This document shows, piece by piece, positions 19,514 through 20,908 of a stretch of 37,067 nucleotides of DNA. The notes beneath the pieces are model-generated. The model worked only from the letters and a program-made list of their open reading frames with translations. It was not told the origin of the DNA and made no database searches. The position numbers and the translations under genes were made by a program. Source of the DNA: Minisyncoccota bacterium (GTDB taxonomy: Bacteria; Patescibacteriota; Minisyncoccia; Minisyncoccales; GWA2-38-27); the NCBI GenBank assembly GCA_028687715.1, contig JAQTZP010000007.1, positions 1 through 37,067 of the forward strand, written 5' to 3'. Within the stretch, counting starts at the first letter, position 1, and each line of letters begins with the position of its first letter.

Positions 19514-19587
19514 CGGGGCATGGTGTAATTAGATAACATTTGCGCATGGGGTGCGTAAGACTCCGGGTGCGAGTCCCGGTGCCCCGA
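19514..19587 (+). tRNA. tRNA-Pro (anticodon GGG), atypical D and T loops
   Basis: Full cloverleaf: acceptor CGGGGCA/TGCCCCG with the bacterial tRNA-Pro C1-G72 pair, D stem GTGT/ACAT, anticodon stem TGCGC/GCGTA with loop ATGGGGT (anticodon GGG, G37), T stem CCGGG/CCCGG, discriminator A. A32 and U38 match the pattern known for tRNA-Pro(GGG) (family knowledge). CCA is not encoded. It is odd in lacking the GG of the D loop (AATTAGATA) and in reading TGCGAGT in the T loop, so position 55 is G rather than U. It reads CCC and CCU codons. Confidence 0.88.
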
Positions 19588-19620: not shown

Positions 19621-19644
19621 ATAAAAAAAGCTTTTTAAAAAGCT
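19621..19644 (-). terminator. Terminator of the 6S-like RNA
   Basis: On the minus strand AGCTTTTTAAAAAGCT (19629-19644) is followed by six further T. It sits 8 nt after the closing stem of the structured RNA. Confidence 0.8.
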
Positions 19645-19792
19645 ATAACTTAAGCCCTACTCTATTTCCAGAAAGATTCTGAGGAAAATATCTTAATTTA
19701 GTATCCGCACGCATCCGCCTCAACGAATACAAATATAGGATACTCTAAAAATAGTTATAGTCCTGAATCAATCCAGAAATCTAAGCAGGGCT
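19621..19792 (-). ncRNA. ssrS: Structured non-coding RNA, candidate 6S RNA
   Basis: No protein is encoded here. The core (19653-19792, 140 nt) folds end to end: AGCCCU at the 5' end pairs with AGGGCU at the 3' end, continuing through AUUUC/GAAAU and GAUUC/GAAUC. Above this comes a large, AU-rich central bubble (about 17 and 16 nt), then an apical arm with AGUAUCC/GGAUACU and GUAUUCG/CGGAUGC closing a UUGAGG loop. A long closing stem, central bubble and apical arm is the architecture of 6S RNA, which binds the housekeeping RNA polymerase. The RNA has its own consensus promoter and intrinsic terminator. That it is a discrete RNA gene is well supported; the 6S identity is inferred from shape only. 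Confidence 0.65.
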
Positions 19793-19799
19793 ATTATTA

Positions 19800-19828
19800 A
19801 TTTTAGCGCAGTCAGAATTAGATGTCAA
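19800..19828 (-). promoter_or_regulatory. Consensus promoter of the 6S-like RNA
   Basis: Minus-strand TTGACA (19823-19828, 6/6), exactly 17-bp spacer, TAAAAT (19800-19805, 5/6). The predicted start is the A at about 19792, which is the first base of the closing stem. It lies just after the stop of the NMP kinase gene. Confidence 0.8.
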
Positions 19829-19834
19829 ATTTAA

Positions 19835-20908
19835 CTAAAGATTTAAGACATCTGTAATCTGCTTTATCAAAGAAACAACAACCGGAGGAGGCATTAGGCT
19901 GTTTGAAGCTACGCCTTCATCATCTAAAATCTGCCAAGGCTTTTCAATTATCTCTACTTTTTTATCATTATCATTCCAATTATAAACATATTCAGGAGTA
20001 ATCTCATAATCATCTGTAAATTCTTTGGCTTTATCAACCGGTATTGAGTTCCTTAGAAGAATCTTTGGAATCCCATACAAGGAAAAAGCTCGTTTTATAA
20101 GATTCTCATCTGTTTTTAATCTGTTTTTAATAGGCTCTATTCCCAATTCATCTCCCTCTTTGGTGACCATCCTCTCTTTTTGACAACTGGAATTATCGCA
20201 AACAAGGAAGAATTTGTCCCTCTCTTTGTCATATCCTGCATTTTTAGTAGGTAAAAGCTTTAAGTTTCTTGATGTCTGACATACAGGACATATCACCCGG
20301 TACTTAATTCTTTCATCTATAACTGCCTCTGGAACATCAATTAGAACAAAGATATCAGGATCTTCTCTGTATTCAATTAAATCTCTGAAAAATAAAGAGT
20401 AAGATATCTGGTCCAAGTCTCTTGGAAATCCGTCTATGAAAACAGCTTTTTTCCCTATTTTTGATATCTCGTCTTTTACCAAGGCCAAGATAAGCTCCGA
20501 AGAAAGAAGTGTTTTTGTGCTTCTTTGCTCCAATGACCTGATAATTTCTTCAAGAGACATAAACCCTCTGTAGTTTTTCTCTAAAAAATAAATGAGTTCT
20601 TTTTTCTTATTCTCATCAGCTACTACCGCATCAAAACGCCTGACCATGTCTCCTATGGAAAAATGCTCAATCTTGTCTTTATCAATTATCTCTTTGAACA
20701 TTTTCGCATAAGTTCCTTTGCCAGAGCTCTTTTTCCCCAATAGATAAGCTATAAAAGTGTTGTTTTTAAGATATTCTCTTAATTTTTCAATCTCTTTGCC
20801 TGCCTTAAATTCAAAATAAGCCTGTCTCTGATTAAAATCAGTCAAATCAAACCTTTCTGAAGAATTGTCTATTTTGGTTTTAAAAATAGGAAATTGAATA
20901 TCTTTCAT
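19835..20908 (-). CDS. Adenylate kinase-family NMP kinase with zinc LID and extensions
   Basis: 357 residues, against about 215 for adenylate kinase. P-loop GKKSSGKGT (58-66), SIGDMVRR at 84-91 in the NMP-binding part, DGFPRD (159-164), and a LID with CPVC (207-210) and C237/C242 for zinc. About 50 extra residues precede the P-loop and about 60 follow the core. It keeps the NMP-binding residues that the adk-like gene at 2912-3622 has lost, so it may provide the main adenylate kinase activity or act on another nucleotide. It is 5 bp downstream of the ComEC-like gene and probably co-transcribed. Confidence 0.82.
   Translation of the reverse strand: MKDIQFPIFKTKIDNSSERFDLTDFNQRQAYFEFKAGKEIEKLREYLKNNTFIAYLLGKKSSGKGTYAKMFKEIIDKDKIEHFSIGDMVRRFDAVVADENKKKELIYFLEKNYRGFMSLEEIIRSLEQRSTKTLLSSELILALVKDEISKIGKKAVFIDGFPRDLDQISYSLFFRDLIEYREDPDIFVLIDVPEAVIDERIKYRVICPVCQTSRNLKLLPTKNAGYDKERDKFFLVCDNSSCQKERMVTKEGDELGIEPIKNRLKTDENLIKRAFSLYGIPKILLRNSIPVDKAKEFTDDYEITPEYVYNWNDNDKKVEIIEKPWQILDDEGVASNSLMPPPVVVSLIKQITDVLNL

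Follow-up and report, generated by a model that had tools for sequence, protein, structure and literature searches.

A probable compact and divergent 6S RNA in a Minisyncoccota bacterium and its relatives of the candidate phyla radiation

Organization of the locus and predicted fold

The window, i.e. the whole stretch of 37,067 nt analysed here, belongs to contig JAQTZP010000007.1 (assembly GCA_028687715.1) of a Minisyncoccota bacterium of the order Minisyncoccales, a member of the candidate phyla radiation (CPR). A non-coding RNA gene lies on its minus strand, between the stop codon of an NMP kinase gene (19835) and the plus-strand genes for tRNA-Pro and bL28. This tRNA-Pro(GGG), at 19514-19587, was called by ARAGORN and falls below the cut-off of the Rfam tRNA model, the other two tRNAs of the window being reported. 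The features of the locus, all on the minus strand, are as follows, with the basis of each in brackets.

19835..20908, minus strand: adenylate-kinase-like NMP kinase, the upstream neighbour, outside the RNA (Pfam PF00406)
19823..19828, minus strand: -35 hexamer TTGACA (sequence; recurrence in 68 homologues)
19800..19805, minus strand: -10 hexamer TAAAAT, after a 17-bp spacer (sequence; recurrence in 68 homologues)
19623..19793, minus strand: putative 6S RNA transcription unit of about 170 nt (sequence and fold)
19783..19792, minus strand: closing stem, 5' strand (AGCCCUGCUU), pairing with 19662-19653 (fold; arm-swap test)
19761..19769, minus strand: inner stem GAUUCAGGA, 5' strand, bordering the bubble and pairing with 19685-19682 and 19679-19675 (fold; alignment with the relative G012; covariation)
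19745..19760, minus strand: central bubble, 5' strand (CUAUAACUAUUUUUAG) (fold)
19738..19744, minus strand: apical stem, 5' strand (AGUAUCC; family consensus GGGAGUCC), pairing with 19706-19700 (covariation)
19737-19732 / 19709-19707, minus strand: conserved UAUAUU/UGC internal loop below the apical hairpin
19710..19731, minus strand: apical hairpin of 9 bp (covariation, up to six pair types per position)
19700..19706, minus strand: apical stem, 3' strand (GGAUACU; family consensus GGACACCC) (covariation)
19686..19699, minus strand: central bubble, 3' strand (AAAUUAAGAUAUUU) (homologue alignment)
19653..19662, minus strand: closing stem, 3' strand (fold; arm-swap test)
19623..19644, minus strand: predicted intrinsic terminator, hairpin 19644-19629 followed by a U-tract (fold; looser terminator scan)

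A sequence-only reading of this region had proposed an autonomous unit with a near-perfect promoter, a start at the first base of a long closing stem and an intrinsic terminator, and each of these three elements was recovered. The promoter matches 11 of the 12 consensus bases and holds the joint top score in a 10-kb promoter scan. The transcription start predicted from it falls at about 19794-19792, so that A19792, the first base of the closing stem, coincides with it within about 1-2 nt, and the unit runs from there to the U-tract. The terminator hairpin contains only two G-C pairs and is followed by a U-tract of 6-7 nt; too A/U-rich for the default terminator scan, which missed it, it was recovered with looser settings.

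Folded as a single sequence, the RNA forms one unbranched rod of -58.6 kcal/mol, a stability that none of 200 shuffled sequences reached (-35.2 +/- 3.6 kcal/mol; z -6.6). The rod had been described as a closing stem, a large AU-rich central bubble and an apical arm. This shape and the bubble are real, although the single-sequence fold places weak pairs across the bubble.

Distribution and conservation of the family

A DNA search of 60 relatives yielded one homologue, in genome G012, which is 73% identical to the window RNA. This copy possesses its own promoter (TTGACT-16-TATAAT) and sits behind Ndk and the same MBL-fold gene; the two RNAs align without gaps over a 95-nt core in which compensatory changes are already visible. 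Most of the other DNA-level matches in the relatives were low-complexity alignments at the A/T-rich terminator and were discarded, G012 alone being homologous.

A covariance model built from these two sequences (R1) matched 97 of 247 genomes of the order, once per genome, with E-values down to about 1e-18 when the two training sequences are excluded. A second model (R2), built from 70 sequences and trained on the R1 matches, again gave one match per genome, both in the class (147 of 384 genomes, including 35 of the 41 sampled members of the window genome's own order) and in the phylum (111 of 380). A group I intron candidate at locus L002 was rejected (18 bits for a cut-off of 50, on the opposite strand). 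The distant CPR members L110 to L122 have much longer apical arms, L110 being aligned across the whole Rfam 6S model, and shortening of the arm seems to have occurred inside the CPR.

Covariation, which the sequence-only reading had put forward as a check on relatives, was counted on alignments made from sequence alone and proved strong. In the apical arm, the 16 pairs form in 93% of cases, against 69% with shuffled partners and 37-52% with slid partners, and they gather 286 double-change cells against 99 in shuffles, with up to six pair types at positions of the apical hairpin. Over a 23-pair core the corresponding counts are 320 and 118, the inner stem being paired at only 66% in this sequence-only alignment. 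The arms of the closing stem also match each other, pairing better within their own sequence than with the median swapped-in arm in 64 of 68 homologues. These patterns indicate that the structure of the RNA is under selection, as judged from the sequence comparisons.

The signals surrounding the RNA are conserved as well. A sigma-70 promoter with at least 9 of 12 matches stands at the right distance in 93% of the 68 homologues and in 4% of shuffles, and exactly 6 nt separate the -10 hexamer from the first base of the closing stem in 50 of the 68. Terminator-like hairpins occur within 70 nt in 42 of the 68 homologues (7% of shuffles). Gene order is likewise conserved: an NMP kinase homologue lies upstream on the same strand at 38 of 67 loci and Ndk takes its place at 14, while bL28 lies downstream in the opposite orientation at 33 of 67.

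Relationship to 6S RNA and alternative identities

6S RNA, the small RNA by which bacteria keep RNA polymerase in reserve, is a global transcription regulator known from most bacterial phyla, for which E. coli ssrS and B. subtilis 6S-1 are the experimental references. The search with Rfam 6S and SRP models advocated in the sequence-only reading had a mixed outcome. The Rfam scan of the window locus returned chance matches only, all below cut-offs, and the 6S model (RF00013) has no match there; relatives do match RF00013, and the SRP models remain without a match. Across the 60 relatives, RF00013 produced one match with E<=1, which falls exactly on a place found by R1 (E 1.8e-4, 28.2 bits for a cut-off of 46.4), its alignment passing through the 6S core UAGGGAGCC...GGGCACCCACCU that borders the bubble. 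A longer-armed CPR member could be aligned across the whole 6S model at 26 bits. Over the 380 genomes of the phylum, RF00013 matches 30 (E<=0.01), four of them above the Rfam cut-off; 23 of the 30, including three above the cut-off, share their contig, strand and position with an R2 match. The two models thus designate the same place in all 23 genomes matched by both, and this coincidence is independent of the training of R2 on R1 matches.

The link was also followed outside the phylum. A motif taken from the shared core was used to preselect contigs of named genomes, and it occurs in Vogel-, Nealson-, Yonath-, Peregrini- and Saccharibacteria as well as in Omnitrophota, Halanaerobium, Thermosyntropha and others. 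Among these preselected contigs, the RNAs of Omnitrophota, Halanaerobium and Thermosyntropha exceed the RF00013 cut-off, and none of the 14 Patescibacteria contigs does. On the Omnitrophota contig L138, R2 has a match (E 4e-4) that falls within the 69.3-bit match of RF00013; searched against E. coli ssrS, R2 gave none. Since RF00013 matches CPR places and R2 matches Omnitrophota 6S RNA, the link runs in both directions. The CPR family also possesses the core that borders the bubble on its apical side (GGGAGCC...GGGCACCCACCU), with CCCAC in 61 of 68 homologues. Taken together with the covariation, these reciprocal matches support the 6S interpretation that had been proposed from shape and promoter, and the minus-strand unit 19828-19622 is very probably the ssrS gene, encoding a compact and divergent 6S RNA of this CPR bacterium.

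The copy of the window is itself peculiar. It departs from nearly all its relatives at the most conserved positions of the region 19745-19686, where GGG...CCCACUU is replaced by GAG...CUAAAUU, so that its core reads GAGUAUCC...GGAUACUAAAUU in place of the family core. The near-invariant CCCACYU box of the family, which begins in the stem and extends into the 3' bubble strand, thus appears here as CUAAAUU, and the apical stem forms an uninterrupted helix of 7 bp, shifted by one register. Given its intact promoter, fold and neighbourhood, this copy does not resemble a pseudogene. Its function as a 6S RNA is the least certain point for its own genome.

Three other identities were weighed against 6S RNA. 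The rod shape that recalls 6S is also that of SRP RNA, and the place of an SRP RNA looks vacant, none being found in the window genome (RF00169, RF01854) and no small SRP RNA in the 60 relatives. The M-domain of SRP54/Ffh (PF02978), retrieved in 14 of 14 positive controls, was not found in the window genome either, and therefore no SRP RNA is expected in it; moreover the window RNA has no match to the SRP models and its relatives match the 6S model. An SRP RNA of the CPR is accordingly a most improbable identity, and the signal recognition particle seems to have been lost in this genome, perhaps throughout its CPR order. Two further housekeeping RNAs, tmRNA and RNase P RNA, are located elsewhere in the genome. 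The RNase P RNA (G000:C5:46365-46701) scores 81.5 bits for an Rfam cut-off of 100 and would be missed by cut-off-based annotation. A better match to another RNA family, an outcome that the sequence-only reading had regarded as contrary to its proposal, was found with none of the Rfam families.

An undescribed structured RNA, resembling 6S by convergence and serving another protein partner, would fit with the position of the window copy and most CPR copies below the 6S cut-off. It would also fit with the sequence of the bubble, which is not promoter-like beyond its composition: hexamers resembling a -10 element in the 3' bubble strand with at least 4 of 6 matches occur in 57% of homologues against 36% of shuffles, and with at least 5 of 6 in 8% against 11%, so that a -10 mimic, not convincingly above composition, was dropped as evidence. 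The agreement of two independently built models in every one of the 23 genomes that both match and the specificity of the shared sequence core flanking the bubble speak against such a convergence, which we regard as very unlikely. Hardly more credit can be given to an Ms1-like RNA, a relative of 6S that binds core RNA polymerase without sigma and sets the level of the enzyme. Ms1 is structurally related to 6S (PMC9130861), and the shared-core motif is also present in contigs of Streptomyces and other Actinobacteria, where Ms1 is the known member. Yet Ms1 measures about 300 nt and carries two extra end hairpins (PMC9130861), whereas the CPR family spans 119-146 nt between the ends of the closing stem with no extra hairpins inside; R2 matched Omnitrophota contigs and no Streptomyces contig at E<=1, and the Rfam 6S model locates the same places as R2. 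Size and architecture thus argue against an Ms1 identity.

Several Streptomyces contigs (L147, L151, L165 and others) carry a single occurrence of the 6S core motif. R2 matches none of them, and L147, the sole Streptomyces locus tested, lies below the Rfam 6S cut-off. They may correspond to the Ms1 locus, in which case Ms1 and 6S would belong to a single superfamily by sequence.

Proposed function and significance of a probable compact 6S RNA

With 6S RNA retained as the preferred identity, the CPR RNA can be compared to known systems. It shares with 6S/SsrS (RF00013) the rod with its closing stem, large central bubble and apical arm, the core GGGAGYC...GRCACCCACYU at the apical edge of the bubble, a sigma-70 promoter of its own and a single-copy gene. 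It differs by its apical arm, which in most members retains no more than a stem, the UAUAU/UGC internal loop and a single short hairpin, by its 119-146 nt between closing-stem ends compared to about 180 nt for 6S, and by its position below the Rfam cut-off, or the lack of any match, in 376 of the 380 sampled genomes of the phylum. Ms1 of Actinobacteria also combines a 6S-like rod and a central bubble and binds RNA polymerase (PMC9130861), but it differs from the CPR RNA by its length of about 300 nt, its extra terminal hairpins and its binding to the core enzyme, and Streptomyces contigs are unmatched by R2. SRP RNA (RF00169, RF01854) resembles it as a long rod-like molecule and differs by the lack of a model match and of an Ffh M-domain in the genome. 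A further comparison is offered by an engineered RNA, a B. subtilis 6S-1 truncated to 78 nt that keeps the bubble between two short arms. In vitro it still binds polymerase, though about ten-fold more weakly, and it still serves as a pRNA template and undergoes release (PMC8876501); the CPR form, by contrast, is naturally compact. Since this truncated RNA still works in vitro, the compact CPR form is mechanistically plausible.

By analogy with 6S RNA, whose 3' bubble strand corresponds to the -10 element, whose apical region corresponds to the -35 and whose basal helix touches beta and beta' (PMC8876501), we infer the following cycle for the CPR RNA. The rod would be bound by the holoenzyme of RNA polymerase and the housekeeping sigma factor in place of an open promoter, its 3' bubble strand occupying the position of the non-template -10 region, and polymerase would thereby be stored in starved or non-growing cells. 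When NTPs return, the enzyme would use the 5' bubble strand (19745-19760, the putative template) to synthesize a short pRNA toward the closing stem, and this synthesis, as in 6S RNA, would refold the RNA and release the enzyme. The pRNA of the window copy is predicted to be near 5'-AUAGUCCUGAAUC.

The apical arm of E. coli and B. subtilis 6S RNA carries -35-like sigma contacts. A short apical arm could therefore imply another engagement of the polymerase, weaker or differently dependent on sigma, which would set the CPR RNAs apart as a functional class of their own among polymerase-binding RNAs, perhaps adjusted to the host-attached and detached phases of these symbionts; we consider this extension rather unlikely.

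Within 6S RNA, the CPR RNA represents a compact branch (about 119-146 nt) that is apparently uncatalogued. The open-access literature, to which our survey was restricted, nowhere pairs 6S RNA with the candidate phyla radiation, Parcubacteria or Saccharibacteria, and its match for Patescibacteria concerns SRP. As far as could be checked, this compact branch is thus undescribed. Four of the 380 genomes of the phylum pass the Rfam cut-off, so that automatic annotation may already include a small number of CPR 6S RNAs; the R2 model provides a ready tool for annotating this missing housekeeping RNA across the CPR. As a naturally compact form, the RNA is also a good subject for finding the minimal 6S. 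The RNA has been retained in single copy by genomes of 0.5-1 Mb, among them at least one that apparently has no SRP, which suggests that a reserve of polymerase matters even to these reduced and mostly host-dependent cells.
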